A stretch of DNA of 57,717 bases from an uncultured Flavobacteriales bacterium. Lineage in GTDB: Bacteria > Bacteroidota > Bacteroidia > Flavobacteriales > BACL11. Made by a program: the position numbers and the translations under genes. The stretch is from assembly GCA_905612305.1 (NCBI GenBank), contig CAJQRK010000021.1, positions 1-57,717 on the forward strand. The letters run 5' to 3'. Shown piece by piece: positions 4,038 to 57,717 of this stretch. The notes under the pieces were generated by a model. The model searched no databases. It had not been told where the DNA came from and worked only from the letters and a program-made list of their open reading frames with translations. How positions within the stretch are numbered: the stretch's first letter is position 1; each line of letters begins with the position of its first letter.

Positions 4038-4934
4038 ATGATAATTCCTAAAAAATTAAAAATAGGCGATAAGATTGGCATTGTTTCTACTGCTAGAAAA
4101 ATTACTTTGGAAGAATTAAGTCCAGCAATTAAATTGTTGGAAAATTGGGGATTTGAAGTGCTGTTTGGAGCTAATTTATTTGAAAAAGATAACCAGTTTT
4201 CAGGAACGGTTGAACAAAGAACTGCTGATTTGCAAAGCATGATAAATAATGACGAAATTAAAGTAATTTTGTGTGCACGTGGTGGTTACGGAACCGTTCA
4301 GATTATTGACAATATCAATTTTTATAGTTTGAAAAAAAATCCGAAATGGATTATTGGCTATAGTGATGTTACGGTTTTACATTCTCATTTAAATAATCTA
4401 GGGCTTGCAAGTTTGCATGCTACTATGCCTATTAATTTCGCAAATAATTCTAACAAGTCTCTTCAAAGTTTAAAAAATTCTCTTTTAGGAAAATCAAATA
4501 GAATAGAATGCACAAGCCATGCCCTTAATCTCTTAGGGGAAGTAGATGCTGAAATAGTGGGAGGTAACCTTTCTATTTTATATAGTTTATTGGGCTCAAA
4601 TTCAGATATTTATACAGAAGAAAAGATTCTTTTTATTGAAGATTTGGATGAATACCTCTATCATATTGACCGAATGATGATGAACCTTAAACGCAATGGA
4701 AAATTAGCTAAATTAAAGGGACTAATAGTTGGAAGAATGAACGATATGAATGATAATGAAATACCTTTTGGCAACTCAGTTGAAGAAATAATCTTGGAAC
4801 ATACTAAGAAATACGATTATCCTATTTGTTTTGGTTTCCCAGCGGGCCACATGAATGATAATAGATGTATAAAATTAGGAGTGAAGTCAGTGTTGAAAAT
4901 AACTGAGAATGGCGTAAGTTTATCCCAAGAATAA
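4038..4934 (+). CDS. LD-carboxypeptidase (peptidase family S66, LdcA/MccF-like)
   Basis: The product is predicted to remove the terminal D-Ala from murein tetrapeptides during peptidoglycan recycling. The 298 residues match the family length. Visible motifs are CARGGYG (about 79-85), the nucleophile elbow GYSD with Ser109, the Glu-containing segment LFIEDLDEYLYHIDRMM, and a late His in GFPAGHMNDN, consistent with the Ser-Glu-His triad of S66. There is no signal peptide, so it should act in the cytoplasm as LdcA does. The gene is transcribed away from metG from its own promoter. A MccF-like role in self-immunity cannot be excluded, but no microcin genes are nearby. Confidence 0.92.
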   Translation: MIIPKKLKIGDKIGIVSTARKITLEELSPAIKLLENWGFEVLFGANLFEKDNQFSGTVEQRTADLQSMINNDEIKVILCARGGYGTVQIIDNINFYSLKKNPKWIIGYSDVTVLHSHLNNLGLASLHATMPINFANNSNKSLQSLKNSLLGKSNRIECTSHALNLLGEVDAEIVGGNLSILYSLLGSNSDIYTEEKILFIEDLDEYLYHIDRMMMNLKRNGKLAKLKGLIVGRMNDMNDNEIPFGNSVEEIILEHTKKYDYPICFGFPAGHMNDNRCIKLGVKSVLKITENGVSLSQE

Positions 4935-5297: not shown

Positions 5298-6024
5298 AAG
5301 TATTTAATTGTTCAAAAATAGTATTGTAAACTGAAGTATTCAAATTTTCAATACTTTTTTCTACTAAGCTATTTGGAGCTATAGGTTTATGTATCTTAAT
5401 ACGTACAATGCCTGGCCTTCCTTTAAAGTATTCCTGAGGAAAAATCCTTTTATTATCAGCAATAGTAATGGGTATAGTTTTAATATCTTGCTCAATAGCT
5501 AAACGAAAAGAGCCATTCTTAAATTTTTTTAAAAGTACATCTGCTTTTGGAATTCCTCCTTCTGGAAAGATACACATATTAATTCCTTTTTTAAGTTGTT
5601 CTCCCGCCTTTAAGAAAGCATCATAAGCATCACGTTTATTACCTCTATCTACCACCACAGTATTATTTTTATAGAAATAGCCAAACAAAGGGATTTTAGC
5701 AATTTCGGCCTTCCCCATGTATTGTATAGGCATAGGAAGTACAGCTAAAATAAGAGGTATATCTAAAGTAGAAACATGGTTAGGGCAAAAAATATAATGT
5801 CCTTTTTTATCTAATTTGTGTTCCCACTCAATGCTAGGATAGATAAATGAGAAAAATAAAGTAAGCTTTGACCAATAGCGAGTAAGGTGGCAGACAATTT
5901 TATTATTTTTATAAATAGCCGTATAGAAAAATAGTGCAGGAATAAATGCTATAAAGAGCAAGATAAAAACGATTAAAAACCATATCCGCCAAAGTGAACT
6001 TAAAAGATAGCCTATCCATTTCAT
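5284..6024 (-). CDS. plsC: 1-acyl-sn-glycerol-3-phosphate acyltransferase
   Basis: The product is predicted to acylate lysophosphatidic acid to phosphatidic acid in phospholipid synthesis at the inner membrane. One or two N-terminal membrane helices (about residues 10-35) are followed by the acyltransferase motif NHVSTLDIPL (NHx4D, about residue 77) and the substrate-binding motif FPEGGIPKA (about 154). The 246-residue length is normal for PlsC. A -7 box ends four bases before the ATG, so the message is probably leaderless. The gene overlaps gatC downstream. Confidence 0.9.
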   Translation of the reverse strand: MKWIGYLLSSLWRIWFLIVFILLFIAFIPALFFYTAIYKNNKIVCHLTRYWSKLTLFFSFIYPSIEWEHKLDKKGHYIFCPNHVSTLDIPLILAVLPMPIQYMGKAEIAKIPLFGYFYKNNTVVVDRGNKRDAYDAFLKAGEQLKKGINMCIFPEGGIPKADVLLKKFKNGSFRLAIEQDIKTIPITIADNKRIFPQEYFKGRPGIVRIKIHKPIAPNSLVEKSIENLNTSVYNTIFEQLNTYGSK

Positions 6025-41753: not shown

Positions 41754-42332
41754 ATGAAAAAAACACTACTAATATTACTTTGTCTGCCTTTGCTTTTTAC
41801 AGCGTGTAAGAAAGATGATGAGATATCTAATATAAATATGAATAATACAAATCTATCTATTGGAGATATCTATCAAGGTGGAGTTATTTTCTACTTAGAT
41901 GTTACAGGTCAACACGGTTTTGTGTGTGACTTTAAAGACCTGGGAATTGCAGAATGGGGTTGTCATGACACAATAATTGCTGGTGCAGACGAAACAGAAA
42001 TTGGTAAGGGTTATCAAAACACCATTGATGTAGAGATTGGTTGCACTATGCCAAATACAGCAGCGGATTACTGTGCAAATAGTTCTGCGCAGGGCTATTC
42101 TGATTGGTTTTTGCCCAGCAAGGATGAATTGAATCAAATATACCTGAATAAAACCACTATTCAATTAACAGATGGGGTTACTGCTTTTTCTACTACCTAC
42201 TATTGGTCTTCTAGCGAGAGCAATAGCAAGCACGATTATGACCCCGCCTGGGGCCAGTACTTCAGTAATGGGTTTCAGTACGGCTATGATAAGAGTAGTT
42301 CTTACAGCGTGAGAGCTATTCGGGTTTTTTAG
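41754..42332 (+). CDS. Lipoprotein with Lcl C-terminal (DUF1566-type) domain
   Basis: The 192-residue product has a lipoprotein signal (MKKTLLILLCLPLLFTACKKDD; lipobox FTAC) and a short Asn-rich linker. It then has a compact domain: GDIYQGGVIFYLDVTGQHG, EWGCHD, GYQNTIDVEIGC, GYSDWFLPSKDELNQIYLN, YWSSSE and the end YSVRAIRVF. This is the Lcl/DUF1566 pattern, often found as multi-copy surface or carbohydrate-binding proteins in Bacteroidota. The function is unknown. A hairpin follows at 42338-42358. The gene and its spacer resemble the truncated ORF at 43403 in their first about 60 bases. Confidence 0.85.
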   Translation: MKKTLLILLCLPLLFTACKKDDEISNINMNNTNLSIGDIYQGGVIFYLDVTGQHGFVCDFKDLGIAEWGCHDTIIAGADETEIGKGYQNTIDVEIGCTMPNTAADYCANSSAQGYSDWFLPSKDELNQIYLNKTTIQLTDGVTAFSTTYYWSSSESNSKHDYDPAWGQYFSNGFQYGYDKSSSYSVRAIRVF

Positions 42333-42397: not shown

Positions 42398-42445
42398 AAA
42401 TATAATATAAAAAGCTATGCGCGCATAGCTTTTTATATTATATTT
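42398..42445. repeat. Perfect 48-bp palindrome
   Basis: All 24 base pairs match, with the symmetry axis between 42421 and 42422 and no spacer. The arms read, from the centre outward, GCGC, ATAGC, then AT-rich sequence. The right arm contains all but the last base of the -7 box of the patatin gene. It lies between two same-direction genes and could also act as a terminator for the first. Confidence 0.95.
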
Positions 42446-42463: not shown

Positions 42464-43318
42464 ATGGGGGAGAAAGAAAAAATAGCATTAGTAATTGAGG
42501 GTGGAGGATTTAAATCAGTTTTTTCAGCGGGGGTTTTAGATGCATTTCTAATGAATAAATTTAATCCTTTTGATATTTATATAGGTGTTTCAAGCGGAGC
42601 AATGTCTTTGTCTTATTATATAGCCGGTCAATACAAAACATATTTTTCACTTTCAAAAGAAGTATCTGTTAATGAGGAATTTTTAAGCTATAAACATGCC
42701 CTTTCAGAACAAGGATATATGGATCTAAAGTTTTTAGCAGAATATGCCAAAAAAAATAAGCCGTTAGAATTACAAAACATGAAAGTTTCTACTAAGAATA
42801 AAAAATTTTATATAGTAGGCACAAATTTAGATAATGGTGAGGCTGTTTATTTAGAGCCAACCCAACAGACTATTTATAGATGTCTACGAGCAACCTCTTC
42901 ATTGCCATTTTTTACTAAAGGTAAATGTAAGATAAATGGGGTAGATTTAATGGATGGAGCATGGTCTGATGCAATACCAGTAAAATCAGCAGCTGATTTT
43001 GGGGCAAATAAAATAATTGTTATTAGACCACATCCTTTAGGTTATAAAGTAAAAGGATTAAGTTATTTGTCCTTGCTTGCTGGATATTGGTGGAGGAATA
43101 CCCCAAAAGTAAGTGATAATTTCTTTAAAGAAGATAATTATTACAATGAAGCCGTAGATTTTTTAACGAAAAAACATAAAAACATAGAGATTATACAAAT
43201 ATGTCCTGACAATTTCTTGAAATCAGGTGTAGTTGGAACTAAAAAAAAAGATTTAACACAAGATTATCATTGTGGTTTGGAAAAGGGTATGGATTTCCTT
43301 AACACTAGCTTTCTATAA
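42464..43318 (+). CDS. Patatin-like phospholipase
   Basis: The 284-residue product has the patatin features: oxyanion loop IEGGGFKSVFSAGVLDAF (about residue 10), nucleophile elbow IGVSSGAMSLSYY (GxSxG, about 41), and the DGA motif MDGAWSDAIP (about 165) completing the Ser-Asp dyad. There is no signal peptide, so it should act in the cytoplasm or at the inner face of the membrane, hydrolysing acyl esters of phospholipids. The nearest well-known type is E. coli YjjU/RssA-like. It is followed by a terminator hairpin that begins in the stop codon. Confidence 0.9.
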   Translation: MGEKEKIALVIEGGGFKSVFSAGVLDAFLMNKFNPFDIYIGVSSGAMSLSYYIAGQYKTYFSLSKEVSVNEEFLSYKHALSEQGYMDLKFLAEYAKKNKPLELQNMKVSTKNKKFYIVGTNLDNGEAVYLEPTQQTIYRCLRATSSLPFFTKGKCKINGVDLMDGAWSDAIPVKSAADFGANKIIVIRPHPLGYKVKGLSYLSLLAGYWWRNTPKVSDNFFKEDNYYNEAVDFLTKKHKNIEIIQICPDNFLKSGVVGTKKKDLTQDYHCGLEKGMDFLNTSFL

Positions 43319-51740: not shown

Positions 51741-54257
51741 TTAAAATTGTTGATTTATAGAGAAATGAAACTGACCTCCATTTGCATCAGGATTTTCAGC
51801 GATATCATCAAGCCCCCAACCATAATCAAGCCCCATCATTCCAATCATTGGCAACATAATTCTTACTCCAAATCCAGCTGATCGCTTTACCCCAAACGGA
51901 TTAAAGTTATCAATATTATCCCAAGCGTTTCCTGCTTCTAAAAATCCTAAAGCATAAACAGTTGAACTTGGATTTAAACTTAAGGCATATCTTAATTCAG
52001 CTGTGTATTTATTGTAGATTGTTGCTCCAGTCAGAGGAGATATAGAGTTATTACTATATCCTCTTAATGCAATTAATTCTCGCCCATCATAGACCGCTCC
52101 CATTCCGCTCATTGCATCTCCCCCAACATAAAACCTTTCAAAAGGAGAAATTCCAAGTTTGTTGTTATAGCCACCTAAGATTCCCATTTCTGCTCGAGTC
52201 GCTACAACTAGTTTTTCTGTAAAGTTAGAAAACCATGAGTACTTCATATTCCATTTGTAATATTCAATCCACTTGTATTTTTCTTGATCTGTTAGGGTGG
52301 TATAATCATCTACTCCATCAAACATTGAGTAGGGAGGAGTTAGCTTTAAACTCAATGATAAATTCGCCCCTCCTCTTGGATAAATTAATTGATCAACAGA
52401 GTTTCTGTCTAATTGTATATTATAACTCACATTGTTTGAAAATCCGTTTGAAAAACTGAAGAAGGATTGTGAATTAATGAGCTCATATTGTTGAAAGTTA
52501 ATTCCATTGTAGATCCTAAAATAATCATCAGGGAATTTTAATCGTTTACTTAATCCTATAGTTAAACCTGTCAGCTCAACAGCTTGCCTATCATCCCCAC
52601 TTTGTCCATTTGACGAAATTGATTTATATGCAGAAAAAGATAATGAGTTTGGTTTTTTGCCTCCAAGCCACGGCTCTACAAATGATATTCTGTACTGCTG
52701 ATAATATACTCCATTTGATTGAGCTGAAATTGTAAATCTCTGTCCATCACCTGAAGGTAAAGGTGTCCATTTATCTTTTTTTAAGATATTTCTTGTTGAA
52801 AAATTATTAAAAGTAAACCCAAGCGAACCAACAACTCTACCGGCCCCCCACCCTCCTTGTAATTGTATTTGATCTGAGGATTTTTCAGATAATACATAAG
52901 TGATATCCACTTCATTCCTTGAAGGATTAGGGTCTACTTTTACATCAAAAGCTTCAGGATCAAAATACTGCATTTGAGCTAATTCTCTTTGCGAACGCAT
53001 GATGTCTGAACGCTTAAATAAATCTCCAGGACGAGTGCGAATTTCACGCATGATGACATGGTCGTTGGTTTTAGTATTTCCTTTAATTAGAACTTTATTT
53101 ACCCGAGCTTGCTTGCCTTCATAGATTCTAATTTCTAAATCAATACTTCTGTTATTTGCAGCAATTTCAACAGGAGTGGCAGTAAAAAACAAATAACCAT
53201 CATCAAGATAAAGTGAGCTAATATCATTACCTTCAGGAGATCCAAATAGCCTAGAATCTAATATAGATTGATCAAAAATATCACCCTCGTTTATTCCTAT
53301 TTGCTGATTTAGTTTTTCATTGGCATGTACTTTATTTCCCACAAAAGTAATCTTACCGAATTTATAAGGCTCTCCTTCAATTATTGTCATTTCAATAGTA
53401 ATAGTATTATCATTATTTAGATATGTTGTATCACTAATAATTCTTGCATCTCTATATCCAACCTCATTATACTTAGCAATTAGATTTAGTTTATCATCTT
53501 CATAATTGTTGTCAATAAATTTAGAAACCTTAAAAATTCTCCAGAAATTTTTAACCTTAGTTTCTTTCATGCTTTTCTTTATTTTTTTATTGCTTATAGC
53601 AAACACAGTATCTTTTTGGTTAAAAAAAGTTGTATTAGTATTAACGATTTTATTTCTTCCGTGAATGATGATGTCTTTAATTTTCATCTTCTTGCCTTTT
53701 GTGATATTGAAAATTAAACTTTTGGAGTTTGCTGTTGTGGTGTCAACATCTGTTAAGCAACTAATATTTATATTATAAAATCCTTTGTTAATATAATAGG
53801 TTTTAATAGTATTAAGGCTATTGTTAATAAGATTCTGAGTTAGTACTTTTCCTCTCATTAATTTTAAATCTTCTTTTAAAGTTGTAATGTCTGATTTACT
53901 AATCTTACCTTTGAATTTAAATTTAGATAGTCGACTATTTTCTGTTAAAGCAATATTCAAAAAAACAAGATTGTTAATTATTTTCTCAATACTAATATCT
54001 GCGTCTGAAAACAAGCCTTGCTCCCATAGCTTGCTAATTGCTGAAGAAATATTCTCACCAGGAATTTTTATCTCCTCACCTACCATTAATCCTGAAATTG
54101 TGATAAGAGCACTACTATTAAGGTGCTTAGCTCCCCTTACTGTAATCCCTCCAATTTCATAAGTTTTTGGATTAGCGTAATTAAGCTCTTCAGTAATCTG
54201 AGCCGAAACCGATACAGTAAATAAACTGATTAATAATAATGCAATTTTTTTCACCAT
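51741..54257 (-). CDS. bamA: Outer-membrane protein assembly factor BamA
   Basis: BamA inserts beta-barrel proteins into the outer membrane. The start at 54257 gives a signal peptide (MVKKIALLLISLFTVSVSAQ) and lies one base after the uppS stop; the frame opening at 54290 would overlap uppS. The 838-residue product has five POTRA-like units (from about 25 to 450), the last with VLIKGNTKTNDHVIMREIRTRPGDLF. It then has a 16-strand barrel with the loop motif LRGYSNN (VRGF equivalent) and a C-terminal Phe (FHFSINQQF), the outer-membrane insertion signal. Confidence 0.96.
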   Translation of the reverse strand: MVKKIALLLISLFTVSVSAQITEELNYANPKTYEIGGITVRGAKHLNSSALITISGLMVGEEIKIPGENISSAISKLWEQGLFSDADISIEKIINNLVFLNIALTENSRLSKFKFKGKISKSDITTLKEDLKLMRGKVLTQNLINNSLNTIKTYYINKGFYNINISCLTDVDTTTANSKSLIFNITKGKKMKIKDIIIHGRNKIVNTNTTFFNQKDTVFAISNKKIKKSMKETKVKNFWRIFKVSKFIDNNYEDDKLNLIAKYNEVGYRDARIISDTTYLNNDNTITIEMTIIEGEPYKFGKITFVGNKVHANEKLNQQIGINEGDIFDQSILDSRLFGSPEGNDISSLYLDDGYLFFTATPVEIAANNRSIDLEIRIYEGKQARVNKVLIKGNTKTNDHVIMREIRTRPGDLFKRSDIMRSQRELAQMQYFDPEAFDVKVDPNPSRNEVDITYVLSEKSSDQIQLQGGWGAGRVVGSLGFTFNNFSTRNILKKDKWTPLPSGDGQRFTISAQSNGVYYQQYRISFVEPWLGGKKPNSLSFSAYKSISSNGQSGDDRQAVELTGLTIGLSKRLKFPDDYFRIYNGINFQQYELINSQSFFSFSNGFSNNVSYNIQLDRNSVDQLIYPRGGANLSLSLKLTPPYSMFDGVDDYTTLTDQEKYKWIEYYKWNMKYSWFSNFTEKLVVATRAEMGILGGYNNKLGISPFERFYVGGDAMSGMGAVYDGRELIALRGYSNNSISPLTGATIYNKYTAELRYALSLNPSSTVYALGFLEAGNAWDNIDNFNPFGVKRSAGFGVRIMLPMIGMMGLDYGWGLDDIAENPDANGGQFHFSINQQF

Positions 54258-54258
54258 T

Positions 54259-54981
54259 CTATTTTTGTCTTTGTTCTGTTGTTTTTCCAAATCTTCTCTC
54301 TCTACTTTGATAATCTAATATTGCTTTTTCTAAATCAGCTTTTCTAAAATCAGGCCAAAGAGTATCTGTAAAATATAATTCCGAATATGCTATTTGCCAT
54401 AAAAGGAAATTACTAATTCTTTGCTCTCCGCTTGTTCTTATTAATAATTCAGGGTCGGGAACGTTTTTTGTCGTAAGATATTGCCGAAAAGTATCCTCAT
54501 TTACTTGATTTGAAGTAAGACCGTCTTTAATAATATTTTCAACTGCATTTAAAATCTCCCATCTACTACTGTAACTTAAAGCAAGCACAAGCATCATTTT
54601 TGAATTATCTTTAGTTTTTTCAATAGCTTCCTCTAGTTTTTTTTGCGCATTTGATGGCAATGATTTTATGTTACCAATAGTGGTTAATTGGATATTATTA
54701 TTCATTAATGTTTTTGTTTCTTTATGTATTGATGAAACTAATAATGTCATTAATGCATTTATTTCATTTTCAGGTCGATCCCAATTCTCAGTTGAAAAAG
54801 CATAAAGGGTAAGATACTTGATGCCAATTTTTGCAGCAGCCTCAACAGTTTCTCGTACTGCTTTTACGCCCCCCTGATGTCCAAAAATTCTTACTTTACC
54901 TTTTGTTTTGGCCCATCTACCATTCCCGTCCATAGTAATGGCAATATGTTTTGGTAAATTAGTTTTGTCTATCCCTTCCAT
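54259..54981 (-). CDS. uppS: Undecaprenyl diphosphate synthase (isoprenyl transferase)
   Basis: The product makes the C55 lipid carrier for cell-wall synthesis. The 240-residue protein shows the catalytic Asp in ITMDGNGRWAKTKG (about residue 18), YLTLYAFSTENWDRP (about 68-82), ALSYSSRWEI, PDPELLIRTSGEQRISNFLLWQ (about 190) and the end SRERRFGKTTE. All family regions are intact. It sits between porG and bamA, the order known from Porphyromonas and many other Bacteroidota. Confidence 0.97.
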   Translation of the reverse strand: MEGIDKTNLPKHIAITMDGNGRWAKTKGKVRIFGHQGGVKAVRETVEAAAKIGIKYLTLYAFSTENWDRPENEINALMTLLVSSIHKETKTLMNNNIQLTTIGNIKSLPSNAQKKLEEAIEKTKDNSKMMLVLALSYSSRWEILNAVENIIKDGLTSNQVNEDTFRQYLTTKNVPDPELLIRTSGEQRISNFLLWQIAYSELYFTDTLWPDFRKADLEKAILDYQSRERRFGKTTEQRQK

Positions 54982-56800: not shown

Positions 56801-57484
56801 TCAAAATGGACTTGAAAAGTGCAAAAATACCGCTTTTTCTCCTAATCGGTTTATTGAATACTCAATTCTTAATAATTTATCGTAATAAGTTACATAATCA
56901 AGAGCAATTCCTTTCCCCCACAATAAAGAATTATTGAGTGTGTTTTCAGTTTGTTCCTTTAAAACATAGCCTAAGTCAGAAAAAATACCCAAGTAAAGCG
57001 AATAATGGGATTTCTTAAATTGCTTCATTTTTACATAAGGAATTTCAAAGTCTGTCTTTTCAATTAATGCATACTTAATGGCTGTTTTGGATAGCCAATA
57101 GCTTTGTCCGTCCACTACATAATATTCGTAACCCCTTACATAATCCTCATAGCCTAAAGCCTTTTGTATGAAGTAGGGCTGATTTTCTTTAGGGCTATAT
57201 TTTGTTTTAAAGCTACTTCCAATATAAAAGCGATTGAAAGGTTCAATATGTTTTTCTGATTTAGTTAGCAATTCAAAATGATGCACATCAGATAAAAAAT
57301 ATTTTTTAATTTCATAACTAAGGGCGTATCCATGTAAAGGATAAATGATGTAATCTCGTTTTTCATGTTCCAATTGGTAACTAATACTGAATAGGTCAGC
57401 AGTTGTGTTGCGGTCCCCTAAATAGTTTGGGTTAAGAATTGTTATGGAATCAGAAACTGTTGATGTAATTGAAAGGTGGTACAT
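56801..57484 (-). CDS. C-terminal half of a BamA/TamA-type (Omp85) outer-membrane protein, 5' part displaced
   Basis: The frame covers the C-terminal barrel of a Bacteroidota Omp85-family protein: SITILNPNYLGDRN at the start, YIIYPLHGYALSYEI, the signature DYVRGYEYYVVDGQ (VRGF/Y equivalent), LYLGIFSDLGYV, WGKGIALDYVTYYDKLLRIEYSINRLGEKAVFLHF and a final Phe. It has no signal peptide, and the same frame has stops just upstream (57504-57506 and beyond). The missing N-terminal half appears on the opposite strand immediately to the right (57471-57717). The Met at 57484 is therefore an accident of the junction, not a real start. Confidence 0.8.
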   Translation of the reverse strand: MYHLSITSTVSDSITILNPNYLGDRNTTADLFSISYQLEHEKRDYIIYPLHGYALSYEIKKYFLSDVHHFELLTKSEKHIEPFNRFYIGSSFKTKYSPKENQPYFIQKALGYEDYVRGYEYYVVDGQSYWLSKTAIKYALIEKTDFEIPYVKMKQFKKSHYSLYLGIFSDLGYVLKEQTENTLNNSLLWGKGIALDYVTYYDKLLRIEYSINRLGEKAVFLHFSSPF

Positions 57485-57717
57485 CTTGCCTTATCCTATA
57501 TTCGAAATTTCTGAACGTAACTTTAATACTTGGTGGAAAGAATTTGCAGCCAATGATTATTCCGATTTCTCTCGCTTAAATTATGGCGTATTTTTTAATT
57601 GGGAAAATTTTAGAGGTCGGAATGAACTTGTAAAGTTAAAAATACGAAAAGGATTTAAAGAGCATTACTTATTAGCGTATGAGGTTCCTTATTTCAACAA
57701 AAATAAAACAATCGGAA
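57444..57717 (+). CDS. N-terminal-half fragment of the same Omp85-type protein, on the opposite strand, partial
   Basis: From an ATG at 57444 the plus frame is open to the window edge. From about residue 10 it reads ERWYILPYPIFEISERNF, then NTWWKEFAAN, RLNYGVFFNWENFRGRNELV and HYLLAYEVPYFNKNKTIG. This is the region of the Omp85-type family that should precede the ILNPNYLGDRN segment found on the minus strand. The first nine residues (MESETVDVI) are only the antisense of the minus-strand gene. There is no signal peptide. The gene continues out of the window. Confidence 0.7.
   Translation, partial: MESETVDVIERWYILPYPIFEISERNFNTWWKEFAANDYSDFSRLNYGVFFNWENFRGRNELVKLKIRKGFKEHYLLAYEVPYFNKNKTIG
57471..57485. 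other. Inversion or fold-back junction inside an Omp85-type gene
   Basis: To the left, the minus strand encodes the C-terminal half (from Tyr-His-Leu at 57481-57473). To the right, the plus strand encodes the N-terminal half (from Arg-Trp-Tyr at 57474-57482). The crossover lies in GGTGGTACATC, which contains the short palindrome GTAC. Confidence 0.6.

Follow-up and report, generated by a model that had tools for sequence, protein, structure and literature searches.

A contig end bearing two opposed pieces of a single Omp85-type gene is probably a fold-back chimera

The window analyzed here is a 57,717-nucleotide stretch of DNA that makes up the entire contig C21 of a draft assembly, and its final ~0.9 kb consists of two opposed pieces of a single Omp85-type gene. 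We consider it very likely that this arrangement is an artefact of amplification or assembly and no gene switch, and we think it probable that the right end of the window is a fold-back chimera generated by whole-genome amplification. Such an end is without biological interest in itself. It serves as a caution, however, that contig ends in draft genomes may carry short inverted tails that resemble broken or invertible genes.

Results

The assembly totals 1.33 Mb in 77 contigs and is an estimated 75% complete. The right end of the window is a physical contig end, and the genes near it (49.8 to 57.5 kb) are murI, two OmpH/Skp-like genes, and those for BamA, UppS, a PorG-like protein, and NAD kinase, with the murI and OmpH/Skp labels assigned from translation only. 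The right end itself holds a 227-codon open reading frame (ORF) on the minus strand (positions 56801 to 57484) and an open frame on the plus strand that begins at 57444 and runs off the contig end.

Both frames align to the 460-codon frame of a relative (L003). The minus-strand piece (56801 to 57468) is the C-terminal half of an Omp85-type outer-membrane protein; from 57468 down to 56804 it is 89% identical to codons 237 to 460, and it adjoins the NAD kinase gene, where it is correctly placed. The plus-strand piece (57455 to 57717) is an inverted internal part of the same gene that is cut by the contig end, and positions 57456 to 57716 are 93% identical to codons 93 to 179 of the same frame. 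These matches, with E values of about 1e-143 and 5e-58 in a small local database, are far above chance. The initial annotation had described two opposed halves of one Omp85-type gene, and this description holds; it had placed the junction at 57474 to 57484, whereas the alignment with L003 puts it at 57455 to 57468. Two separate genes were ruled out, because the pieces cover separate, non-overlapping stretches of one homologue, and relatives have this homologue in single copy. The plus-strand piece is the sole copy found in the assembly, and no second intact copy of the Omp85-type gene was found elsewhere in the genome. The first residues of the 227-codon ORF, MYHLS, are the antisense of the plus-strand piece and lie outside the protein. 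The minus-strand piece matched the NCBIfam model TIGR03303 (BamA) weakly (E = 5.4e-6, under the curated cut-off), and a Pfam search with the two fragments alone returned nothing.

Most of the named relatives are marine Flavobacteriales/Cryomorphaceae with metagenome-assembled genomes. Of 59 relatives, 31 have one match each to the C-terminal piece. The intact gene, which the initial annotation had proposed to look for in related genomes, was found: wherever a fetched locus is not interrupted by a contig end (28 of 28), both fragments lie in one unbroken frame of 458 to 531 codons. The inverted form was found in no relative, neither among the 31 with a match nor in the 28 loci, which show one orientation only.

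The intact homologue in L035 (4302 to 5675) contains one detected POTRA domain (E = 1.9e-4, above the Pfam cut-off) and has a weak BamA-type match to TIGR03303 over residues 16 to 429 (E = 2.2e-17). A comparison of the intact homologue with solved structures, by sequence, gave no match. Judged from these profile matches, the name Omp85-type appears fair, since a POTRA domain is combined with a weak BamA-type match that spans most of the sequence, as in the Omp85/BamA superfamily. The homologue differs in having about 460 residues and just one detected POTRA, and in scoring far under the BamA equivalog cut-off. The window has a separate full-length BamA homologue (51741 to 54290) with three detected POTRA stretches. 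The genes of L035 run in the order hydrolase, PdxJ (these two on the other strand and named from translation only), CBS-domain protein, Omp85-type gene, NAD kinase, PorG-like protein, UppS, and BamA. The window keeps this order from the Omp85-type gene onwards, and the order from NAD kinase to BamA is common to the window, L034, L035, and L039.

Relative to L003, the plus-strand piece starts at 57455 and the minus-strand piece ends at 57468, and the 14 bases AACTGTTGATGTAA between these positions are common to both. They form a junction microhomology of 10 to 14 bp that is inverted between two sites of the intact gene; in L003, the two homologous sites are 420 bp apart and complementary at 13 of 14 bases. 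A palindromic GTAC, previously named as the junction microhomology, was ruled out, as it sits at 57479 to 57482, wholly inside the plus-strand piece. At the same aligned positions in nine other relatives, complementarity is just 3 to 9 of 14 bases. Because the match seen in L003 is not shared by these nine, the alignments argue that the AACTGTTGATGTAA stretch is 10 to 14 bases of chance microhomology and no conserved site. Exact inverted matches of at least 10 bases occur 0 to 10 times per gene inside the Omp85-type gene (seven relatives), which makes such a chance site unremarkable.

These comparisons bear on two readings in which the rearrangement exists in the cell. In the first, raised by the initial annotation, a reversible, phase-variable inversion would give surface variation in an outer-membrane protein. 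Inverted repeats do flank an internal segment of ~420 bp in a gene for a surface protein; however, a repeat of this quality is found in the nearest relative but in none of the nine others read, the 28 loci all have the same orientation, and a flip would abolish the protein without giving an alternative reading. With the gene intact in every relative that could be checked and the inverted repeat not conserved, we regard this reading as extremely improbable. In the second, template switching in vivo between the 10- to 14-bp inverted sites would have flipped or duplicated the internal part and destroyed the gene as a fixed or sporadic event, switching off the protein in some or all of the population. 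Microhomology-mediated inversion also occurs in cells, and the exact inverted matches in the intact genes of relatives indicate that short chance repeats are available as substrates. Nevertheless, the unbroken state of the gene in all 28 checkable relatives speaks against its being lost easily, the event falls where the contig physically ends and the assembly has a gap, and the reciprocal junction was sought in the assembly and not found. We therefore consider an inversion of this kind quite unlikely; if true, it would add a modest example of gene inactivation.

The contig continues for 249 bp past the junction. A search of the assembly found neither codons 1 to 92 and 180 to 236 of the Omp85-type gene nor the upstream neighbors, the CBS protein and PdxJ (pdxJ). 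As a control, the same PdxJ query matched in 5 of 5 relatives; thus, the PdxJ search is valid and the gap in the assembly starts about here. Nineteen contigs of 2.1 to 3.0 kb are N in the fetched stretches, may fall outside these searches, and might hold the missing pieces. The contig of the nearest relative (L034; DUAO01000115.1) also starts just before the gene, with positions 1 to 146 preceding a frame start at 147, and the PdxJ gene of the genome lies on a different contig (G012:C94). The region upstream of the Omp85-type gene may thus be hard to assemble in the genus.

To survey the assembly for other fold-backs, contig ends were matched against roughly 40% of the nearly complete genome of one relative (G013), and 46 of 117 ends were usable; at 29 of these 46, the match reaches within 150 bp of the end. 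Opposed pieces were found at none of the 46 except the right end of the window, which was recovered as the positive control. Fold-back tails of roughly <100 bp would escape this survey. Such ends are therefore not common in the assembly, and their rarity neither proves nor disproves amplification. A fold-back with both long arms was also sought, and the expected inverted repeat was absent from the fetched stretches, which cover part of the long contigs and hold the 19 small contigs as N.

Discussion

Of the chimeras formed by multiple displacement amplification (MDA), 85% join their segments in inverted orientation, and a deletion usually accompanies the join (Lasken and Stockwell 2007, PMC1855051). 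The sites of inverted joins are mostly <10 kb apart, with priming on 2 to 21 complementary nucleotides (nt), and complementarity is present in 93.5% of near inversions (PMC1855051). A reanalysis found that distances peak at 250 to 300 nt and extend beyond 5 kb and that overlaps peak at 6 nt (PMC4595205). The junction in the window resembles these chimeras in that minus-strand codons 237 to 460 and plus-strand codons 93 to 179 of one locus meet in an inverted join from which the intervening stretch is missing. Its sites, at their spacing in L003, fall well under the 10-kb limit, and its complementarity of 10 to 14 nt lies within the published span and is not conserved as a site. It differs in being seen as an assembled contig end and not as a single read, and its spacing is somewhat past the distance peak. 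The overlap also exceeds the usual 6 nt, which counts against an MDA origin. Taken together, a 420-bp spacing with 10 to 14 complementary bases appears to fit the published MDA signature.

As its other explanation, which it called quite likely, the initial annotation had offered that the contig end is misassembled or a fold-back chimera. That reading is supported here, because the end is a physical one, the geometry and microhomology match those of published MDA chimeras, and the assembly lacks the region upstream. The process would have started during copying of the antisense strand of an Omp85-type gene that was itself ordinary and intact, in what was probably a phi29 polymerase reaction to amplify the whole genome of a single cell. 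The 3′ end of the nascent strand, terminating in GTTGATGTAA, would have left its template and annealed to the complementary 10 to 14 bases near codon 93 on the other strand, 420 bp nearer the 5′ end of the gene. Extension of the annealed end back in the sense direction would then give a product in which the antisense of codons 460 to 237 is joined to sense codons 93 to 179 and onwards. The assembler would have followed this product for 249 bp and stopped, with the true region beyond presumably hardly covered, and the gene in the cell itself would be intact.

That amplification was responsible, and not some other step of library preparation or assembly, is what we infer. A chimeric library read or an assembler misjoin could have exploited this short inverted microhomology where coverage was low at a contig end of a metagenome-assembled genome. 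Assembler misjoins usually need shared words longer than 14 bases. The position at a contig end and the missing flank are equally expected for such an artefact, and nearly all of the named relatives are metagenome-assembled, so the genome of the window may be as well. On the other hand, the inverted join, the spacing, and the complementarity are those of the published MDA pattern (PMC1855051), and we give a library or assembler artefact a small share of the probability. Before the window is annotated, its last ~263 bases (from about 57455) should be masked or trimmed away.

Two other repeats were noticed in this genome. A perfect 48-bp palindrome (42398 to 42445; two arms of 24 bases without a spacer, AAATATAATATAAAAAGCTATGCG and its complement) lies between a gene for an Lcl_C-domain lipoprotein-like protein (41754 to 42332) and a patatin-like gene (42464 to 43318). 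This palindrome is probably a transcription terminator, although an unusually perfect one. On the 6.2-kb contig C41 (L100), an exact 35-bp sequence occurs three times (2580 to 2614, 4164 to 4198, and 5661 to 5695), and one of the copies is inverted relative to the other two.
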